From NCBI GenBank assembly GCA_026708165.1, contig JAPOVO010000199.1, forward strand, positions 1-23,493: a stretch of DNA of 23,493 bases. The letters run 5' to 3'. This document shows, piece after piece, positions 6,438-23,493 of the stretch. The notes under the pieces were generated by a model that was given only the letters and a program-made list of their open reading frames with translations, was not told the DNA's origin and did not search any database. The stretch comes from Chloroflexota bacterium (GTDB lineage: Bacteria > Chloroflexota > UBA11872 > VXNJ01). Numbering within the stretch: the stretch's first letter is position 1; each line of letters starts with the position of its first letter. The translations under genes and the position numbers were made by a program.

Positions 6438-6591
6438 GAAACGGACCTTCTACTAAGGTAAGGAAACAAGGATATCTTACAACCGTACGGCTGCCTTGCA
6501 CAGGCAGTCGACCAGTCGAGGTAACCACGACACGACCGCCGGAAAAGTGTCGATATTGGTGAACGGGGTTAAGGCTCAAATGAGCATTCGG

Positions 6592-6663
6592 AGCGGAAGA
6601 GGGGATTCGAACCCCCGACCCTCTCCTTGGCAAGGAGATGCTCTACCGCTGAGCCACTTCCGC
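6592..6663 (-). tRNA. tRNA-Gly(GCC)
   Basis: This is a 72-base cloverleaf on the minus strand. The acceptor stem GCGGAAG pairs with CTTCCGC. The D-arm is GCTC...GAGC, the anticodon stem CTCCT/AGGAG holds the loop with anticodon GCC, and the T-arm carries TTCGAAT. The discriminator base is U. CCA is not encoded (the next bases read CCG). It lies between the antitoxin gene and the GH109 gene, and a degenerate copy lies at 8373-8437. Confidence 0.96.
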
Positions 6664-8488: not shown

Positions 8489-8859
8489 TGAAGGCTCTCC
8501 GAATTTCAATGCTCGTTCTTGCAATAGCTCACGCGGCTCTCGCGGTATTCGCGGCCCTGGCGGGCGCCTTTGCGGACGGAGGAGACGTCTGGTCGCGGCT
8601 GTTACTCATCCTCTTACACCCGCTTTGCGCCGCCGCCCTGCTTCTGCTTGTATTGCTGCCTCGGGCCGGCATCGCAACGGTACTCGCAATTGCGGCGCTG
8701 CTCGTCGTGAACGTCGGCGCCGACCTTTACACCGCGCTGACGATCTGGCAGGGCGGGCTGCGGGGAGACTGGTGGCTTCCCGCGATATTCGCCGTAATTC
8801 CCGCCATCGGGATCGTCTACGCGCTGACCGTAGCCAGAATGCAACCCCAGCCTGACTGA
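8488..8859 (+). CDS. Small polytopic membrane protein, function unknown
   Basis: The product is a 123-residue hydrophobic protein with about four predicted membrane helices: residues 7-28, 36-58, 61-85 and 93-115. Only short polar loops separate them (GAFADGGDVWSRL, IWQGGLRGDWW), and the C-terminus is short and polar (ARMQPQPD). No conserved family motif was recognised. The ATG has no clear Shine-Dalgarno; a possible promoter lies just upstream. The next gene, a lipoprotein, starts 40 bases later on the same strand, so the two may be co-transcribed. Confidence 0.65.
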   Translation: MKALRISMLVLAIAHAALAVFAALAGAFADGGDVWSRLLLILLHPLCAAALLLLVLLPRAGIATVLAIAALLVVNVGADLYTALTIWQGGLRGDWWLPAIFAVIPAIGIVYALTVARMQPQPD

Positions 8860-8899
8860 GGCCAAGTCCATCAACAGTTCGGCGGCTAGAACACTTACA

Positions 8900-10012
8900 A
8901 TGATCCTCGCCAATCCCGGGTACGCCGTGCGGTTGGCGGCGATCCTTGTTTTTCTCCTTGCCTTAGCCGGATGCGACATAGGGTCCGAGCCGACATCAAC
9001 CGCCGTATCCACTGCGACCGCTACGCCAACACCGTTACCCTCCCCTCCACCGACACCATCCCCGACGGCTACGCCGACACCGCTTCCAACCGCTACGCCG
9101 ACAGCAACACCAACACCGTTTCCGACGGCGACGCCAACGCCGTCACCCACCCCCACGCCGACGCCGCTTCCAACCGCAACCCCAACACCGTTCCCAACCG
9201 CGACACCGACTCCAACGCCGGTTCCCGGACGCTCCGACCTTTACAGCCCGATCATGCCTCCGGAACACATGTCCTACATCTGGTGGGAATGGAGCGCTGA
9301 CAAGGGCGAGTTCGAGTCGCTGGAAATAGATTTCACCATCCACAACGACGTCGGGGACTTCTCCCGTCGGCACGGCCTGTATCTGATGCTCGGTTTTTCG
9401 CACATCGCGGGAGTGCCGTTCTACTTCGGTCTGCAGACCAACGTGAACGATCCGGCGGTGGGGCCACGCGGCAAGGGCTTGATCTTCTCCAGGTGGGAAA
9501 CGCGCGATCTGGACGACGCTAGGGTCGCCGACCCGGTCGAGGGATGGACAGAGTCATCGGGGCACGAGGGCGACTTCATAGGCGTCAGGCGCTCGTACCA
9601 ATGGAGCGCCGGTGAATATCGGGTGCGCGTCGCCCCCGACGGCTCCGACGAGGCCGGCAGGTGGTTCGGCATGTGGATCACGGACAAGGCCACGGGCGAA
9701 ACGACCTGGGGCGGGTCTCTACGGTTCCCGTATCAGGACGGTAAAGCCTCCATCACCTCGCCGGTCTACTCGACGATGGAGATCTACGGCACGCCGATAA
9801 GGCCCATAGACATACCCGAATGGCACGTGAGCATCGCCAGGCCGCTGGGCGACGGCGCAAAACCCACGCGGGGCGTTACAGGATTCCAGGCATTCTCGAT
9901 CGAAACCCTCAACTCCGACGCCTGGTACGACCCCACGGAGGACGCGCTCCACTTCAAAGCCGGCGGCCTCACCCAGCGCACCACCCTCCCCGGCGAAATC
10001 CTCTTCAACTAA
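8900..10012 (+). CDS. Lipoprotein with Thr-Pro linker and DUF3472-like domain
   Basis: The product is 370 residues. A hydrophobic signal ends in the lipobox LALAGC (Cys at about residue 25), so it is likely lipid-anchored on the cell surface. Residues about 32-110 are a low-complexity linker of TPTP, TATP and LPT units, typical of a flexible or O-glycosylated stalk. The remaining 260 residues form a beta-rich domain with many Trp and Tyr (MSYIWWEW, YFGLQTNV, GKGLIFSRWETRD, FIGVRRSYQWSAGEYRVRV) that resembles DUF3472-like carbohydrate-associated domains; that match is tentative. Thr-Pro stalks of this form are common in surface proteins of Chloroflexota. No Shine-Dalgarno is seen before the ATG. 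Confidence 0.75.
   Translation: MILANPGYAVRLAAILVFLLALAGCDIGSEPTSTAVSTATATPTPLPSPPPTPSPTATPTPLPTATPTATPTPFPTATPTPSPTPTPTPLPTATPTPFPTATPTPTPVPGRSDLYSPIMPPEHMSYIWWEWSADKGEFESLEIDFTIHNDVGDFSRRHGLYLMLGFSHIAGVPFYFGLQTNVNDPAVGPRGKGLIFSRWETRDLDDARVADPVEGWTESSGHEGDFIGVRRSYQWSAGEYRVRVAPDGSDEAGRWFGMWITDKATGETTWGGSLRFPYQDGKASITSPVYSTMEIYGTPIRPIDIPEWHVSIARPLGDGAKPTRGVTGFQAFSIETLNSDAWYDPTEDALHFKAGGLTQRTTLPGEILFN
9001..9228 (+). repeat. Imperfect Thr-Pro coding repeat
   Basis: This tract within the lipoprotein gene is built from short ACN-CCN repeats encoding TPTP, TATP and LPT units. Two near-identical 23-base blocks (9071-9093 and 9155-9177, beginning ACGCCGAC and differing at one base) lie 84 bases (28 codons) apart, so the linker probably grew by duplication of a larger unit. 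Confidence 0.75.
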
Positions 10013-15183: not shown

Positions 15184-16089
15184 TCAACTCCCAGTCAGCT
15201 CAAGAAACTCGCGCACCGCCGCGGCACACTCCTCCGGTTTTTCCAGCGGAAGAAAGTGCGTCGCTTCGGGCAAGAAGTCGTAATCCACGATCAAAACATC
15301 ACTGAGATCGAACGTTGGAAGGTACGAGTACGGCAACGTGGGGTCGGCCCCAATGACTTTGACCGGGCAATAGATTGCTTCAAAGTCCACCAGCACGGCA
15401 AACGCGCTGGCGTAATCGATGATCTGCGCTTCATATTCGCGAGGGCACCGAAGCTCATAACCTTCCCCTCCGGTGTCTGGTCGAAGCGTTGTCCTCGCCA
15501 CAAGTTCAAAAACCCCAGGAACGGCACGATAGTAAGCCGGGATATAACTCAGGAGATCGGCAAACTGCTCTCTGGTTTCAAATCGGGGCGTGCGTCGCCG
15601 GGCCATCGCGGCCGTTCGCAGTGCTGCGGCGTCGAACTCTTCGTAGCTGGCGCCAGGCCTACACAGTGGTGGGTCAAACAGAACGAGCGCTGAGAATTCG
15701 CTGCCTTTGGTGGGAGACAAGAGCGTTGTAAGCGCCGAAACCGAATGAAATACGCCTGCTTTGGGTTTCTCACCGTAATGGCGATCGATCGCGTCGAGAA
15801 TACGGTCGTGATCGCGAACTAGTGTCGGAATATTGTGCCTTTGTAGATTGCCGGCAGTATTCCATCCATGGTTCCTGAGGTCGTAGATGACCAGGTCGAA
15901 ATCGTCGACCAGGAGCGACCAGAACGGGTAATAGAGATCGATCGCCAGCCCATTGCCGTGGCTCAGGACGAGCCGTGGCCCCTCAGGATTCCCATGACGC
16001 CGCAGAATGACGATGGTGTCATCGTCCACCCGGGCCTCATAAGTGGAGAGCGGTTCGGGTATCTCCCATACGGTTTCTGAAGTCGTCAA
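15184..16089 (-). CDS. Alpha/beta-hydrolase, candidate off-loading thioesterase/esterase
   Basis: The product is 301 residues with an alpha/beta-hydrolase fold. VLSHGNGLAIDLYYPF holds the HG oxyanion motif, VIYDLRNHGWN follows, and the nucleophile elbow is VFHSVSALTTLL. The usual G-x-S-x-G is thus F-H-S-V-S, with the Ser kept but both glycines replaced. The catalytic His is probably in EATHFLPLEKPEE near the end. The start is TTG, the only start codon in a frame that opens at 16110, with GGAAAG about 10 bases upstream. It is the last gene of the PKS operon, 62 bases after the PPTase, so hydrolytic release or editing of the acyl chain is the likely job. The unusual elbow makes the activity uncertain. 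Confidence 0.8.
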   Translation of the reverse strand: MTTSETVWEIPEPLSTYEARVDDDTIVILRRHGNPEGPRLVLSHGNGLAIDLYYPFWSLLVDDFDLVIYDLRNHGWNTAGNLQRHNIPTLVRDHDRILDAIDRHYGEKPKAGVFHSVSALTTLLSPTKGSEFSALVLFDPPLCRPGASYEEFDAAALRTAAMARRRTPRFETREQFADLLSYIPAYYRAVPGVFELVARTTLRPDTGGEGYELRCPREYEAQIIDYASAFAVLVDFEAIYCPVKVIGADPTLPYSYLPTFDLSDVLIVDYDFLPEATHFLPLEKPEECAAAVREFLELTGS

Positions 16090-16151: not shown

Positions 16152-16862
16152 CTAAAACTGTTCGTGAGCGATAGCGGCCGCGAAACGGTCGTTGCCGAGG
16201 TTTTCCAGCCGCCATCTTACCGATGGCATCTCCGGAAACCGAAACGTACTCGTCACTACGCCGCGGCGCATGGCTAGCGGTACCTCAAATCCGGACACGT
16301 CCAGCGAAAACCCCTTGCCCAGCGCCTTGATTAACGCTTCCTTGATAGTCCATAGGCTAAAGAACAGGTGAACCTTATCGCAGCCGCTCTTCAGCGCAAG
16401 CTCGGATTGTTCGCCCAGACTAAGCACACTCGTGACCAGCACATCGAGATCGCGACGGGCGACACGTTCCTCGACGTCCACTCCCAGCCGTCCCTTTGGC
16501 GCGAACGCGACCAGTCCATGCTCGCCGCTGTGACTGACGTTAAAGCTGATGGGATGCCGTCTCCCATTCACCACGGCAAACGGCTTGCCATGGTCGGATG
16601 CGCCGAACTCGAGCCGTTCGTTCTGGCACCCGAGTTGATCGCAGAGTATGGCGCGGAGTGCCGCCCGGCACAGGGCAAACCGGCGTCGAGCGCCTTGATG
16701 CTCGTACCGCCGCCAACGCGCCTTTTCCTCTTCGTTGAGCCACGTCAAGGCGTCGCCCTCGCGCGTCGAATCGGCTTCCAGATCAATGTGTATGACGACA
16801 GCGTCGCCAATCTCTCGGAACGGACGCCACCAGCATCCCGCAGCCGAATCGGCCACTGTCAA
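16152..16862 (-). CDS. Sfp-type 4'-phosphopantetheinyl transferase
   Basis: The product is about 236 residues, normal for the Sfp/Gsp group. It moves 4'-phosphopantetheine from CoA to the Ser of carrier proteins. The family motifs are in order: WLNEEEKARWRRYEHQGARR, FNVSHSGEHGLVAF (P1), LGVDVEE (P2, metal-binding Asp and Glu) and FFSLWTIKEALIKALGKGFS (P3, WxxKEAxxKxxG). The start is uncertain: TTG at 16862 is used here, GTG at 16856 is possible, and no ATG precedes the first motif. The frame is open further upstream to a TGA near the ACP gene. It lies 111 bases after the discrete ACP and would activate that ACP and the ACP in the megasynthase. Confidence 0.93.
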   Translation of the reverse strand: MTVADSAAGCWWRPFREIGDAVVIHIDLEADSTREGDALTWLNEEEKARWRRYEHQGARRRFALCRAALRAILCDQLGCQNERLEFGASDHGKPFAVVNGRRHPISFNVSHSGEHGLVAFAPKGRLGVDVEERVARRDLDVLVTSVLSLGEQSELALKSGCDKVHLFFSLWTIKEALIKALGKGFSLDVSGFEVPLAMRRGVVTSTFRFPEMPSVRWRLENLGNDRFAAAIAHEQF

Positions 16863-17356: not shown

Positions 17357-20300
17357 TCAAGCTCGGCGCTTAGGCGCTTCGATCCAGTGACGCCGACGTT
17401 GGAACGGATAGCCCGGCAGCGAAATGCGCCGTCGCATCTCCCCCGCGTACAGCCCCTCGAATGACACTTCCAGCCCCGCCTCGTACGCTGCCGCAACGGC
17501 CTCCACAAAGCCCCCGTCAGTCTCTACCATCCCGTCACCGGCTGGCCGCCGCAGGCTCCCCAGCACGACCGGCCCCCCTACAACCTCCCCGCCTGCCGCC
17601 GATTCCGGCCAGTCCGAGGTCACCTTGGGGCCCAGCACCTCGTGCGGGCCTATCTCTATGACCGCGTCAACTCCCATCTCCGCCAGCTTCTCGACGCACC
17701 TGCCAAATGCCACAGGCTCTCGCGCCTGCCGATGCCAATAGGCCGCATCCAAAGTCTCCCCTGACTCAACCACCCCTCCGGTCGCACTGCTCACAAGTGG
17801 CATTGACGGCGCCATGATCGCAACATCGCGAAGGGCCGCTTCCAGACTACCCTCCAGAGTCAGTCCGGGTCCCGGCAGCGCCGACATCAGCGCGCCCCGC
17901 GTCGACGCGAACTGCAGTCCCGCCTCCAGGTCGAACACACCCGCCGCCTGCGCGGCCGCGAGTTCGCCTGAGCCATGCCCCACAACGACGCTCGGCCTAA
18001 TTCCCACGCTCGCCCACAGCGCGGTAACCGCGCACTCCAGCGCATAGATCGCCGGCTGCGCATAGGCCGTGTCGTTCAGGTCTCCAGCCGGCCCGGCCCG
18101 TCCGAACATCACGTCCAGCAATGACGTACCGCGCTCGTTTCGAAACACCTCGTCGCAGCGGTCCAGAACCGCCCGCACCACCGGCTCGCTCTCGTACAGG
18201 GCCTCCCCCATACCGACCCATTCACTACCCTGTCCGGTATAGGCAAACGCCACTTTGCGTGGATGATCAGGCTTCGATTCCACCGCCGACTGATCCAGCG
18301 CTAGCAGACGCTCGCGCAGCGATCCCGTGTCGCGGAACACCACGCCTGCACGATGATCGAAGTGACTCCGTCCCACCCCCGCCGTCCACGCCATGTCCGA
18401 GAGCAACGAATCCGCAGCGCCATTTCCCGAAGCAAGGTCCCCAGAGCACTCATCGAGCCACTCCAGATACTGTTCAGCCAGCTCCCGCAGCGCCTTGGCC
18501 GTCTTCCCCGACAGCGGCAGCAGCCGTTTGGCGCGCGCGCCAAGCGCCTCCTTTGCCACCAATGCACTATCGGCCAGTTCCGGCAGGCAAACCGCGACGG
18601 GCGTCGGGGAACCCGCAGGCCACCCCTGAATGCCATCTCCGGCGGCGTCCTCCGGTGCGCGGTAACCCTCCACAACCAGGTGCGTGTTTGCGCCTGAAAT
18701 ACCAAAAGCATTCAGTCCCGCAAGCGAGCGGCGATTGGGAACGATCGGCCAGTCCATTGCCTCAGTCGTAACCTGCACCGGCAGCCGCTCCCAGTCGATT
18801 TCCGGATTCGGGTTGTGGAAGTTCAAGTGCTTCGGGATCACCCCCTGACTCATCGCCAGAACGGTCTTGATCAAGCCAGCGATCGCCGCAGCACATTCCA
18901 GATGACCTACGTTCGTCTTTACCGAGCCGATCAGCAGCGGGTGTTTCGCCTCTCGGTCTCTGCCATAGACGGCCGCCGTTGCGCTCATCTCAATCGCGTC
19001 ACCCAAGTCCGATCCCGATCCATGCGCCTCCAGGTAGTCCACCTCGGCCGGTTCGACATCTGCCCGCGTCAGCGCCTCCTCCATCGCCCGCTGCTGCGCT
19101 GGTCCGTTTGGCAAAGTGAGGCCCAGGCCCGCTCCGTTCTGGTTCACGGCCGAGCCTCGGACAACGCCCCAGATCCGGTCACCGTCCGCTTCCGCCTCGC
19201 TCAGACGCTTGAGGACTACCATTCCGCAGCCTTCGCTGCGCACGTAACCGTCGGCGGCAGCGTCGAATGACCAGCACTGCCCGCTCAACGAGAGCATCCC
19301 AATTTCCGTGAGGGATCTCGCGACCGGCTGGAAGAGCACGACGTTCACACCCCCCGCCAGAGCCATATCCACCTCGCCCCGTTGCAAAGCCGCAGATGCC
19401 TGATGCACCGCAACCAGCGACGACGCACAGTTCAGATCCAAGGGGACGGCAGGCCCCTCCAGACCCAGCGCGAAGGCGACCCGTCCGACGGCCACGCTTC
19501 CGGCGGTGCCAAATAGACTGTCGTCCCTTCCGTTCGCGGCCATCAGACTCCGGTACTCGCTGCTGCCGACTCCGGCATACACTCCGGTTCGGCTGCCTTT
19601 GAGCCGGTCCGGGGCGATTCCCGCATCCTCAATCGCCTGCCAGCTTGTTTCGAGCAGCAGCCGCTGTTGGGGGTCCATGGTTCGCGCCTCGATCGGCGCA
19701 ATCTTGAAGAACCTCGAATCAAAACGGTCTATTCCGTCGACAAACCCGCCTTTCCGGCCCACGGGATCGTCTGCTGCGGGGTCTCCCGCAACGCCGTTCC
19801 AGGAGCCGGAATCCCGGCGTCCGTCGGTCACCGCGTTCTCGCCCGCTTCCAGCAGACGCCAGAAGGCCGAAAGACCCTCCGCGCCGGGGAATCGGCAAGC
19901 CATGCCGACAATCGCTATTCCGTCCTCCTCAGGCCGAACCCGAGGAGGTTGAACGGGGGCGCGCTGCTCGGAAAGCACCGCTTCCTCGCCAACTCCCCCG
20001 AGCTCTCCGGCCAGAAAACGGGCGAGGCTTACGGCGTCCGGATAGTCGAAGACCACCGTGTTGGGAGCGACGTACTCCCCGGCGAACGCACGGTTCATAC
20101 GGTTTCGCAGCTCCACCGCCATTAGCGAGTCCATACCCAGATCGGAAAACTCCACCGATGGTGAAGGCGTCGTTGGCAATCGCATCACCGCTTGCAGCTC
20201 TCGCTGCAGGAACGCCACGAGCACCTCCTCACGCTCCGTCGCCGACGCAACTCCGAGGCTTGACAGAAGATCGTCCGGCGAATCCGGAGAATCAACGTCG

Positions 20301-23300
20301 TCCGTAGACACGGACAATAGGTCCTCCAATAACGGTGGACGGTCTTGGACGGCCTCCTCGAACACCGACCAGTCCATCGACATCACCACCGACGTTGTGG
20401 TGTCCTGACGCACCAGCCGCTCAAGAGCCTTGATGCCCTGCTGCGGGGTAAACCAGCGGCCACCCAAGGCCGCCCGCCGCTGCTCGATCCGCTCCCGCTG
20501 CTCCGCAGCTTCGCCGATCTCCGACCACGCTCCCCAGGCAATGGCCTGTCCCGGAAGACCGAGAGCCCGGCGGTGACCGGCGAGTTGGTCCAGGAACGCG
20601 TTCGCTGCCGCGTGGTTCGCCTGGCCCGGATTGCCCATGACCCCGACCCGGCTCGAGAAGAGGATGAACATATCCAGATCGCGATCCATGGTCGCGCGGT
20701 GCAGGTGCCAGGCTCCCACGATCTTCGGCCAGAGCACCCGTTCAAAGCTCGTCCATGTCTGATTGGCAAGCGAGGCGTCCGATAACACACCCACGCTGTG
20801 GATGACACCACCGAGCGGCGGCAACTCCGCGTCGATGCGCGCCAGCATCTCGTCGATTGCTGTCGCGTCCGTCACATCTGCAAGCTCGACCTCAACCCTG
20901 ACCCCACGTCCGCGCAGCGCAATGATTGCTTCTTCAGCCTCGGCGTCGGGATCTCTCCGGCCGTTGAGCACAATCGCGCCTGCGCCGTGGTCCGCGAGCC
21001 AGTCGGCCACGGCGCATCCAATGCCGCCGAGGCCCCCGGTTACTAGGTACGTGCGGTCCTGCCGCAACTGACCTCTCATGAGCGGCGGCGGTGTCAGAAC
21101 AATCTTTCCGACGTGCCTGGCTGATCGCATGAACCCCAGCGCCGCTCCCGCCTCGGCCAGCGGCCACCTGCTGTGAATGAGCGGTTCCAGTTCTCCAGTC
21201 GAAAGCCGCTGCATCACCTCTCGCAGCACCTCTCCTACCCAGGCCGGGTCGGTCTTCTTCAGAACATCCAGCTCAAGGATTGCGTAGGCCACGTCTGGAC
21301 GCACCGCCGCCATCTCCTCATGGCTCAGGATGTCCCTTCTGGCCAATTCCACGAACCGGCCTCCCTGTGCGAGGCACGACAGGCTGGCCTCGATGAATCC
21401 TTCGCTCGTGAGGCTGTTAAGAACCACGTCAACGCCTTCGCCGCCCGTGGCTTCGAGGATTTGCTCCCCGAACTTCGTCTCCCGGCTATCGAACACGTGC
21501 TCCACACCCAGCGACCGCAGATATGCCTGTTTCGGGGCGCTCGCCGTCGCGAACACTTCCGCCCCGGCGGCTTGCGCCAGCTGGATTGCCGCCAGTCCAA
21601 CTCCACCCGCGCCGGCGTGAATCAGTACTCGGTCGCCAGCCTCAAGCCCCGAGTATTCGTAAGAGAGCGCGGCCGACACGAATGCGCTCGGAACCGTAGC
21701 CAGCGCCGACACGGACATATCTGGCGGCGCTGGCGCCACCAATTCCTCTCGCGTGACCATTTCCGGCGCGAACGCGCCAAACCCCAGTCCAACCACCCGA
21801 TCGCCGATGGAGACGGTTGCGACGTCGGATCCTGTGTCCAGGACGCGTCCGCACATCTCCCGGCCCAGATTTCCCTCCTCAATAAAGCCGAGCGACCGGA
21901 ACACGTCCCAGAAGTTGAGTCCGGTAGCCTCGACCGAAACGCGAACTTCCTTTGGCTCAAGGGAACGCGCGGGGAGCGGCTTGACCTCTGGACTGTCGAA
22001 CACGCCACTCCGGTTCGGGGCCAGAACCCAGTCCGACTCCTCTGGTAAGACCAGCCGCTCGCCTGCGGCGTTGGGCCGAACCAAGCGTGCCGAGAGTCGG
22101 CGGCCGCGATACGCGATGTGGTTCTCCTGGTCGGGATACAACAGCTCATTCAAGAGGTCTGGCGGTAGGCCCGACGTGCCGGGATCTAGATCAAGCATTC
22201 GCGGCTGCAGATGGACCGCCTCCAAAGCCACCACCTTGCCCAGGCCCCAAAGGACCGCGCCCGCAAGCTGCCCACTCTGTTCACGCTCGAGCACCTGCGC
22301 CCCACGCGTGACAAACCACACACCTTTTTCCGGCACCACATCGGATTCGGCCAGTCCCTGCACCATGGCCAGCGCGCTCGCGCCCACTTGTTTCACATCG
22401 CCGGCTATTTCGTCGGTTGTCGCTTGCGTCCCGTGACCGTTCAGCGCAGCGAGATGGACAACGCCGCTAAACGGCACATCCCCCGGCAGGTCCTCAAGCA
22501 GCGATTTCCAAGACTCGCGACTTTCCGGATCTACAGCGGTTTCGAGAACTACAGGACCAACAGCGGCTGAGACGCCGTTTTCCGGCGCCTCTCGGCTCGC
22601 CAATACGACCGTCTGGTTCCGCGCCGCCAACGCCGTTGCCAGTTCCTCCGCCACACCGCCGTGGTCCGCAGTTAGAACCCACACGCCTGGAGGCTCAGCT
22701 ACCTGCGCCGGCCCCTGGGCTACGATCACGCCTTTATCCAGCATTTCATGCGTGAACGACTCGTCCACCCCCAAGACTTCGACGCTCTCGAAACCAGCGT
22801 CACCGAGGGCTTGACTCCAAACCGCGGGGCCGGCCAGAGCGTGGTGCGGGCGGTAGTCGTCGGCGAACCGCCACCATCCGTCCAACTGGCCGAAGGTGAG
22901 GTCCATCCAACCCAGGCCCCGCAGGTTTTCGAGCGCCACCAAGTGACCGGACGGTGCGAGCAGCTCCCGACAATGCGCCAGCGTCTCCTCCAGATAGCGC
23001 GTCGCGTGCAGCACGTTGGACGCAATCATCAGGTCATAGCTGTGGGAATCAAAGCCCTGCTTAACGGGGTCCCTCTCGATATCCAGCGGGCGGTAGTCGA
23101 TGCCGTCGCTGCCGAACCGCGCCTCCGCCTCGGCAAAGAAGCCTGCGGAGATGTCCGTGTATACGTAGTCGAATTGCCCATCGGGAAGCTCCGGCAGCAC
23201 CGAGGCCGTTGCCGATCCCGTCCCCGCCCCGACCTCGATCACCCTGAGTCGCCGTCCTTCGGGCAGGTCGGCTAGCAGCGCCTGGACCGCCTCGGCCAGC

Positions 23301-23493
23301 ATCTGGTTCGCGGCCCGTGCCACCGGCGCCTTCAGATACAGATCGGCCGCAGTAGGTTCGCCGCTGCTGAACAGCAGCGTCAAAGGGTCCGCTTGACCGC
23401 GAAGCACATCGGCCAGGGCGCGGCCAGACCGCCGGAACAGCCCGATCTCGGTTAGGCCATCGGGATACAGTTCCTCCATCCGAGCGGCGATTT
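17357..23493 (-). CDS. Type I polyketide/fatty acid synthase, 5'-truncated: MT-(structural KR)-ER-KR-ACP-KS-AT(degenerate)
   Basis: The frame is open to the right edge, so the start (presumably KS-AT-DH) lies outside. Residues are numbered from the ATG at 23479. The C-methyltransferase (about 50-245) has IEVGAGTGSA at 81-90 and NVLHAT with H158. A structural KR half (265-470) precedes the ER (about 490-795; GAGGVG 623-628). The KR (about 808-1000) has GGLGGIG 815-821, K919 and S943, but the catalytic Tyr is H956. The ACP has GMDSL with S1118. The KS (about 1186-1605) keeps C1351, H1486 and H1526. The AT (about 1743-1955) has GHGSGE (1834-1839) for GHSxGE and lacks about 80-100 residues near 1870. 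The post-AT linker (YPFQRRRHWIE) ends the protein at 2040. It probably builds reduced, methyl-branched acyl chains. Confidence 0.93.
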   Translation of the reverse strand, partial: IAARMEELYPDGLTEIGLFRRSGRALADVLRGQADPLTLLFSSGEPTAADLYLKAPVARAANQMLAEAVQALLADLPEGRRLRVIEVGAGTGSATASVLPELPDGQFDYVYTDISAGFFAEAEARFGSDGIDYRPLDIERDPVKQGFDSHSYDLMIASNVLHATRYLEETLAHCRELLAPSGHLVALENLRGLGWMDLTFGQLDGWWRFADDYRPHHALAGPAVWSQALGDAGFESVEVLGVDESFTHEMLDKGVIVAQGPAQVAEPPGVWVLTADHGGVAEELATALAARNQTVVLASREAPENGVSAAVGPVVLETAVDPESRESWKSLLEDLPGDVPFSGVVHLAALNGHGTQATTDEIAGDVKQVGASALAMVQGLAESDVVPEKGVWFVTRGAQVLEREQSGQLAGAVLWGLGKVVALEAVHLQPRMLDLDPGTSGLPPDLLNELLYPDQENHIAYRGRRLSARLVRPNAAGERLVLPEESDWVLAPNRSGVFDSPEVKPLPARSLEPKEVRVSVEATGLNFWDVFRSLGFIEEGNLGREMCGRVLDTGSDVATVSIGDRVVGLGFGAFAPEMVTREELVAPAPPDMSVSALATVPSAFVSAALSYEYSGLEAGDRVLIHAGAGGVGLAAIQLAQAAGAEVFATASAPKQAYLRSLGVEHVFDSRETKFGEQILEATGGEGVDVVLNSLTSEGFIEASLSCLAQGGRFVELARRDILSHEEMAAVRPDVAYAILELDVLKKTDPAWVGEVLREVMQRLSTGELEPLIHSRWPLAEAGAALGFMRSARHVGKIVLTPPPLMRGQLRQDRTYLVTGGLGGIGCAVADWLADHGAGAIVLNGRRDPDAEAEEAIIALRGRGVRVEVELADVTDATAIDEMLARIDAELPPLGGVIHSVGVLSDASLANQTWTSFERVLWPKIVGAWHLHRATMDRDLDMFILFSSRVGVMGNPGQANHAAANAFLDQLAGHRRALGLPGQAIAWGAWSEIGEAAEQRERIEQRRAALGGRWFTPQQGIKALERLVRQDTTTSVVMSMDWSVFEEAVQDRPPLLEDLLSVSTDDVDSPDSPDDLLSSLGVASATEREEVLVAFLQRELQAVMRLPTTPSPSVEFSDLGMDSLMAVELRNRMNRAFAGEYVAPNTVVFDYPDAVSLARFLAGELGGVGEEAVLSEQRAPVQPPRVRPEEDGIAIVGMACRFPGAEGLSAFWRLLEAGENAVTDGRRDSGSWNGVAGDPAADDPVGRKGGFVDGIDRFDSRFFKIAPIEARTMDPQQRLLLETSWQAIEDAGIAPDRLKGSRTGVYAGVGSSEYRSLMAANGRDDSLFGTAGSVAVGRVAFALGLEGPAVPLDLNCASSLVAVHQASAALQRGEVDMALAGGVNVVLFQPVARSLTEIGMLSLSGQCWSFDAAADGYVRSEGCGMVVLKRLSEAEADGDRIWGVVRGSAVNQNGAGLGLTLPNGPAQQRAMEEALTRADVEPAEVDYLEAHGSGSDLGDAIEMSATAAVYGRDREAKHPLLIGSVKTNVGHLECAAAIAGLIKTVLAMSQGVIPKHLNFHNPNPEIDWERLPVQVTTEAMDWPIVPNRRSLAGLNAFGISGANTHLVVEGYRAPEDAAGDGIQGWPAGSPTPVAVCLPELADSALVAKEALGARAKRLLPLSGKTAKALRELAEQYLEWLDECSGDLASGNGAADSLLSDMAWTAGVGRSHFDHRAGVVFRDTGSLRERLLALDQSAVESKPDHPRKVAFAYTGQGSEWVGMGEALYESEPVVRAVLDRCDEVFRNERGTSLLDVMFGRAGPAGDLNDTAYAQPAIYALECAVTALWASVGIRPSVVVGHGSGELAAAQAAGVFDLEAGLQFASTRGALMSALPGPGLTLEGSLEAALRDVAIMAPSMPLVSSATGGVVESGETLDAAYWHRQAREPVAFGRCVEKLAEMGVDAVIEIGPHEVLGPKVTSDWPESAAGGEVVGGPVVLGSLRRPAGDGMVETDGGFVEAVAAAYEAGLEVSFEGLYAGEMRRRISLPGYPFQRRRHWIEAPKRRA

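Follow-up and report, generated by a model that had tools for sequence, protein, structure and literature searches.

Why should a polyketide synthase (PKS) gene end in an acyltransferase (AT) that lacks both its catalytic serine and its catalytic histidine? The question is raised by a 23,493-nucleotide stretch of DNA from a Chloroflexota bacterium (positions 1 to 23,493 of contig JAPOVO010000199.1, assembly GCA_026708165.1), the whole of which is referred to here as the window. On its minus strand, a frame of 2044 amino acids (P0001; 17357-23491), open at the contig edge, represents the 3' part of a type I PKS gene and terminates in a second ketosynthase (KS2) followed by a second AT (AT2). 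Comparison with homologues suggests that AT2 is very probably a catalytically dead acyltransferase, retained within the folded shell of KS2 at the C-terminus. The domains of this frame, with the evidence for each, are as follows:

17357..23491, minus strand: 3' part of an iterative-type PKS gene, encoding P0001, with C-methyltransferase (cMT), enoylreductase (ER), ketoreductase (KR), acyl carrier protein (ACP), KS2, AT2 and stop in that order (open reading frame list and Pfam; complete homologue in the genome G001)
22940..23239, minus strand: C-methyltransferase (PF08242, P0001 residues 85-184; Pfam)
21095..21955, minus strand: enoylreductase (PF08240/PF00107/PF13602, residues 513-799; Pfam)
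20519..21052, minus strand: ketoreductase (PF08659, residues 814-991; Pfam)
20012..20209, minus strand: acyl carrier protein (PF00550, residues 1095-1160; Pfam)
18815..19921, minus strand: KS2 (residues 1191-1559), with Cys-His-His present in LNCASS, EAHGSG and KTNVGH (Pfam and alignment)
18257..18811, minus strand: KS-AT linker region (PF16197, PF22621 and PF22336 matches; Pfam, modelled)
17864..18247, minus strand: N-terminal core half of AT2 (PF00698 positions 2-127), including GQGS and the Arg (profile and alignment)
17963..17980, minus strand: nucleophile-elbow motif GHGSGE, with Ser replaced by Gly at 17972-17974 (sequence and alignment)
17846..17863, minus strand: deletion scar, where the small subdomain with the catalytic His is gone (PF00698 positions 128-201 unmatched; profile and alignment)
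17612..17845, minus strand: C-terminal core half of AT2 (PF00698 positions 202-278; profile)
17360..17611, minus strand: post-AT linker (sequence and alignment)
17384..17410, minus strand: YPFQRRRHW, the end of the post-AT linker (sequence and alignment)

The 5' part of the gene is found on another contig of the same genome (C285, locus L037), where a 1263-aa frame carries KS1, AT1 and a dehydratase (DH), AT1 being full (PF00698 positions 2-271). The last residues of that frame repeat the first residues of the window and, with the window frame itself running off the contig, the gene does not begin at the ATG at 23479. In G001, a genome of the same genus, the homologue (P0122) is an unbroken protein of 3460 aa, encoded on a 349-kb contig, with the order KS1-AT1-DH-cMT-ER-KR-ACP-KS2-AT2-stop. 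This complete protein has a single PP-binding match, its ACP preceding KS2 (Pfam); it is 87% identical to the window in the AT2 region and shows the same deletion.

The lesion itself is clearly delimited. Searched with PF00698, the whole of P0001 scores 144.2 bits (curated cut-off, 32.7), and the match falls into two stretches, one at profile positions 2-127 (17864-18247) and the other at 202-278 (17612-17845), separated by an unmatched gap. The small subdomain and catalytic His of functional ATs are absent, profile positions 128-201 being unmatched and the His column empty. The original prediction, made from the letters of the window, had described an in-frame loss of the His-bearing subdomain amounting to 80-100 residues; the loss is borne out, while its size, by alignment with 120 AT1 domains, is 74 residues. 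Accordingly shortened is the distance from the Arg to the [S/N]xTG motif, at 37 residues in the window versus 107-113 (commonest, 111) in the 120 AT1 domains. The AT sequences of CurL and DEBS flank the gap alike, with one aligned block before the small subdomain and one after it, and the AT family motif is visible in the CurL alignment; in the KS-AT didomains of CurL and DEBS module 3, the small subdomain and the Ser-His dyad are present.

The Ser of the functional GHSxGE motif is also missing. As had been predicted, the codon at 17972-17974 encodes Gly and the motif reads GHGSGE; it occupies residues 1838-1843 of P0001, the earlier numbering (1834-1839) having been counted from the internal ATG at 23479. 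The Arg is kept, as claimed, the residue previously given as R1861 being 1865 once counted from the frame start. GQGS, the reading frame and the post-AT linker are all preserved too, the linker running to the terminal YPFxxxxxW-type motif of P0001, SLPGYPFQRRRHW, which stands eight residues before the stop; the KS-AT linker is kept as well.

The same state recurs throughout the homologues. In 121 aligned AT2 domains (the window and the best 120 of 3279 listed homologues), the small subdomain is absent and the His column empty without exception, and the Arg-to-[S/N]xTG spacing is 20-40, against 107-113 in AT1. The AT1 domains of the 120 homologues all possess the Ser, the His and the Arg (120/120 for each). 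The nucleophile column of AT2 contains Gly (92), Asp (15), Ser (9), Asn (3) or Glu (2); the Arg is retained in 105 of the 121, and the Pro column of the terminal YPFQRRRHW motif holds Pro in all of them. Since this search had used the AT2 region itself as query, a second was performed with KR-ACP, and 59 of its 120 listed matches were at approximately 80% identity or more (lowest, 79.8). Among these close relatives, 49 have AT2, three have a shorter version, three (P0185, P0207 and P0213) have lost the AT core with the linker and YPFQRRxxW remaining, three are broken inside AT2, and one ends after the ACP. A homologue with a full second AT, which the original prediction had named as contrary evidence, was seen neither among the 121 aligned domains nor among the 59 KR-ACP relatives. 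Furthermore, 26 of 41 genomes sampled across the class have a KS2 match of at least 64% identity; all of these 26 also show an AT2 match, spread over two frames in G029 and partial in G037 and G033. As the dead state is common to a large bacterial enzyme family, it is inherited and does not reflect a sequencing error.

Some AT2 sequences depart from this pattern. The domain is frame-broken in G029 (C2:214123-215387), P0191, P0197 and P0199, through either sequencing error or real lesions. In P0072, AT2 and the AT1 of the same protein share 98% identity over the N-terminal half, up to approximately the scar, while the C-terminal halves are 48% and KS1 and KS2 59% identical; this looks like a recent intragenic gene conversion, by which GHSLGE would have been regained but not the subdomain. 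In the other eight Ser-bearing AT2 domains, the N-terminal half is 66-81% identical to the respective AT1. Trees of the AT halves mix AT1 and AT2, with 30 AT1 sequences on the AT2 side for the N-terminal half and three for the C-terminal half (support 0.55).

AT2 is under purifying selection, which is weaker than that on AT1. Between the window genome and G001, the ratio of nonsynonymous to synonymous substitution rates (dN/dS) is 0.25 and 0.43 for the two halves of AT2, 0.084 for KS2, and 0.039 and 0.034 for those of AT1. Over all loci, 67 of 253 pairs, which are not independent of one another, were kept (KS2 dS below 0.9), with 61-66 per block after those with dS below 0.05 had been dropped; the medians are 0.13 for KS2, 0.295 for the linker, 0.195 and 0.281 for the N- and C-terminal halves of AT2, and 0.296 for the post-AT linker, with every pair staying below 1 in all blocks. 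AT2 is no looser than its own linkers, and dN/dS alone therefore does not mark the linkers as the selected part. In a model predicted without the KS, AT2 would have a normal AT core joined to the KS-AT linker.

How might such a domain have come to be kept? AT1 would charge the single ACP for every cycle and KS2 would have no ACP of its own to serve, so that a second loading activity would be redundant and could be lost. What is left of AT2 would then be held by the need for a folded KS2, linker subdomain and post-AT linker. The proposal of a structural AT that is kept, as opposed to random decay, had already been made in the original prediction, and both the family-wide state and the purifying selection support it, with two qualifications. 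The dead AT2 is a trait of the whole protein family and not peculiar to one genome, and it is kept rather than indispensable, given the close relatives that lack the AT core, have it shorter, are broken inside it or stop after the ACP (three, three, three and one of 59).

Several observations speak against a scaffold. The post-AT linker, where constraint would be expected, has a median dN/dS no lower than that of AT2; the end of this linker has a predicted local distance difference test (pLDDT) value of about 30, and the KS half of the KS2-AT2 model is poor (mean 53.4), so the models lend no support to packing onto KS2. The three relatives without the AT core and the one stopping after the ACP indicate that AT2 is dispensable in places, which also fits slow decay.

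Plain decay is the alternative that survives best, though we consider it unlikely. On this account AT2 would have no role, not even a structural one, and would persist only because deletions that keep the frame are uncommon and a frameshift would cost the protein its C-terminus. The relaxed selection relative to AT1 (0.25-0.43 versus 0.03-0.04), the drift at the nucleophile and other motif positions, the AT2 match of G029 that is split over two frames, and the relatives with an absent, shorter or frame-broken AT2 (three of each among the 59) would all be in keeping with it. It sits poorly with dN/dS values below 1 for all 67 pairs in every block, with an AT2 that is open and alignable in 121 of 121 cases, and with the narrow choice of residues where the nucleophile is not Ser (Gly, Asp or Asn in 110 of 112).

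Less likely again is a new, non-catalytic function for AT2, such as offering a binding surface to the ACP, to the alpha/beta hydrolase encoded behind the PKS or to a trans-acting AT. Purifying selection on the core would agree with such a role, as would the conservation of a phosphopantetheinyl transferase (PPTase) and the hydrolase behind the PKS, both being present in 12 of 19 loci, and the discrete AT of trans-AT systems is held to require a docking site (PMC11907408). The core is nevertheless wholly lost in P0185, P0207 and P0213, and trans loading is unneeded because AT1 is present and intact. Continued acyl transfer by AT2 along some other path, such as through the shifted Ser of GHGS, is very improbable: this Ser does adjoin the lost nucleophile in the window, but the position is Ser in only six of the 121 AT2 domains and mostly Leu or Val in the others, and the catalytic His is absent with its subdomain from all 121. 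The shifted Ser, named in the original prediction as a possible substitute nucleophile, was rejected on that count. An assembly or sequencing artefact, conceivable for one contig of a 505-contig draft genome, was rejected as having almost no chance of being correct, since the unbroken G001 frame of the same genus and all 121 homologous domains share the deletion.

For a catalytically dead AT2 kept in the shell of KS2, the modular relatives suggest how the state may have arisen. The other 61 of the 120 listed KR-ACP matches contain 113 KS units whose post-AT linker is readable; 76 of these have intact ATs, nine have full-length ATs with Ser replaced by Gly (seven keeping the His), 17 have truncated ATs (all with Gly; the alignment is doubtful for P0131, P0153 and P0180), and 11 have no AT. 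AT-less members are not confined to a single place in the KS tree. Dead ATs are found in all four KS units whose protein stops at the post-AT linker (P0129, P0134, P0146 and P0177) and in all five KS-DH ends (P0128, P0157, P0159, P0160 and P0166), nine of nine such C-terminal units compared with 17 of the 93 remaining AT-bearing units. The association weakens when the units are sorted solely by whether they have an ACP (odds ratio 6.2, p 0.0014), and it stands at an odds ratio of 3.7 (p 0.02) when AT-less units are counted as dead.

These AT states, together with those of AT2 in the 59 close relatives (49 present, three shorter, three without the core) and the scattered positions of AT-less members, lead us to propose, while giving it a little less than an even chance, that cis-AT modules have become AT-less ones inside working enzymes repeatedly and by ordered steps, which this family and the modular PKSs related to it still record, the trigger being a KS that has no ACP to serve on its own polypeptide. 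The nucleophile-elbow Ser would first become Gly by a single A-to-G transition, the AT remaining otherwise full-length; the small subdomain with its His would then be excised; and in some lineages the remaining core would follow, leaving KS-linker-YPFxRxxxW, the end state of trans-AT ketosynthases. Against the redundancy of an AT whose KS has no ACP to serve, as proposed above for AT2, stand 16 dead ATs whose modules include an ACP and seven live ATs belonging to units that show no ACP on the frame, units that contig ends may have cut. Moreover, the tail-length classes behind the nine of nine were chosen post hoc and include near kin (P0129/P0134 and P0157/P0159/P0160 look close).

For AT2 itself this order of loss is tentative, nine of the 121 domains having Ser. 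The opposite sequence of events, with deletion first and drift of the Ser later, was dropped, since full-length Gly ATs with the His kept exist. Several dead or missing ATs can occur on one polypeptide in the modular relatives: P0131 has KS-AT-ACP and then two modules with heavily truncated ATs, while P0124, P0155 and P0163 have no intact AT on the frame, so that loading of their ACPs may fall to a neighbour's AT or to one acting in trans.

What KS2 does at the end of the protein is a separate matter. Its catalytic Cys is present in 122 of 122 sequences, the first His in 121 and the second in 118 (Tyr in the other four), and KS2 is probably active. KS1 and KS2 are separate in the KS tree (none misplaced, support 1.0), and in a larger tree the 85 sampled Sup-like KS2 domains stay together (support 0.999). 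At approximately residues 1488-1494 of P0001, KS2 reads HGxGS where KS1 has HGTGT, the last position being Ser in 112 of 122, a difference that may bear on its role. No ACP lies behind KS2; the next two genes are:

16152..16862, minus strand: 4'-phosphopantetheinyl transferase (PF01648), next gene downstream of the PKS (Pfam)
15184..16089, minus strand: alpha/beta hydrolase (PF12697) with conserved S116, D249 and H278, candidate acyl-releasing enzyme (Pfam and alignment)

Besides the 12 of 19 loci with both genes, two have the hydrolase alone and five have neither (two of them at a contig edge). The hydrolase residues S116, D249 and H278 are kept in 14 homologues, which makes it a plausible releasing enzyme. 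KS2 could act as a further condensation site, fed with malonyl-ACP that AT1 has loaded, or equally as an exit point from which the acyl chain passes to the hydrolase. In G001, a large serine recombinase (PF07508, PF13408; L036:3189-5039) lies directly upstream of the PKS gene. Elsewhere in the window are a plus-strand open reading frame at 8900-10012 in which a lipoprotein-like start is followed by long Thr/Pro-rich repeats, a Gly/Val repeat frame on the opposite strand (8614-9156, minus) and a tRNA-Gly (gcc) at 6590-6663 (minus).

If AT2 is indeed dead, a widespread symbiont PKS family would carry a dead loading domain throughout, and two-AT annotations, with product predictions made from the second AT, would be wrong for thousands of database entries. 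The family would also supply present-day intermediate stages on the way from cis-AT to AT-less modules, a change that is mostly deduced from its end points alone, and KS2 would be singled out as a conserved ketosynthase without a carrier protein of its own. Engineers might also use ends of this type as a natural guide to the AT parts that a KS can spare.

The architecture of Sup-type PKSs comprises one module, KS-AT-DH-cMT-ER-KR-ACP, in one protein. This set is complete in P0122 of G001, with KS2-AT2 in addition, and the window holds it from cMT to the end. Sup, a small monomodular PKS, is a proposed producer of mid-chain-branched fatty acids (PMC4245539), and SUP clusters have been found in metagenome-assembled genomes of Chloroflexota, Spirochaetota, Proteobacteria and Acidobacteriota (PMC9426513). 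By architecture and spread (PMC4245539, PMC3908369, PMC9426513, PMC9864124, PMC4210886, PMC6306507), P0001 would be most like the Sup PKS of sponge symbionts: Sup/SupA is likewise mono-modular, with a single ACP and a C-methylating, fully reducing domain set, and occurs in Chloroflexota and other phyla. The parts of the cited open-licence Sup literature covered contain no description of a C-terminal KS2-AT2, the founding Sup papers lying outside that scope, and no truncated or inactive AT in a Sup-like family was found described in open-licence literature, a scope short of most subscription journals. The KS2-AT2 arrangement also occurs, at 53-64% identity, in the named records L050-L055, labelled Latescibacterota, Binatota, Chloroflexi and Gemmatimonadetes; these are six of at least 80 loci listed, the other 74 being at 44% identity or less.

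Trans-AT ketosynthases offer a second comparison. The post-AT linker wraps back over the AT and linker subdomain to the KS (PMC11907408), the flanking subdomain of trans-AT PKSs is a presumed relic of the cis-AT KS-AT interface (PMC9113145), and in trans-AT KSs the KS-AT linker fold is followed by a terminal motif of the LPTYPFxxxxxW type (PMC6941969). Linker and terminal motif are both kept in the window, and P0185, P0207 and P0213 reach the same end state; in the window, however, approximately 210 residues of AT core still lie between the two, and its protein has an intact cis AT1 and ends without a further module. Among the five G001 frames scanned, none but the PKS itself showed an AT; further PF00698 matches in the genome that holds the window are at C143 and C478. 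Finally, in module 12 of the irumamycin PKS the GHS nucleophile Ser of AT0 is replaced by Gly, and the domain is read as inactive (PMC11672594). The substitution is that seen in AT2, but AT0 is a full-length module AT without the Ser, whereas AT2 also lacks the small subdomain, a state that extends across its family.
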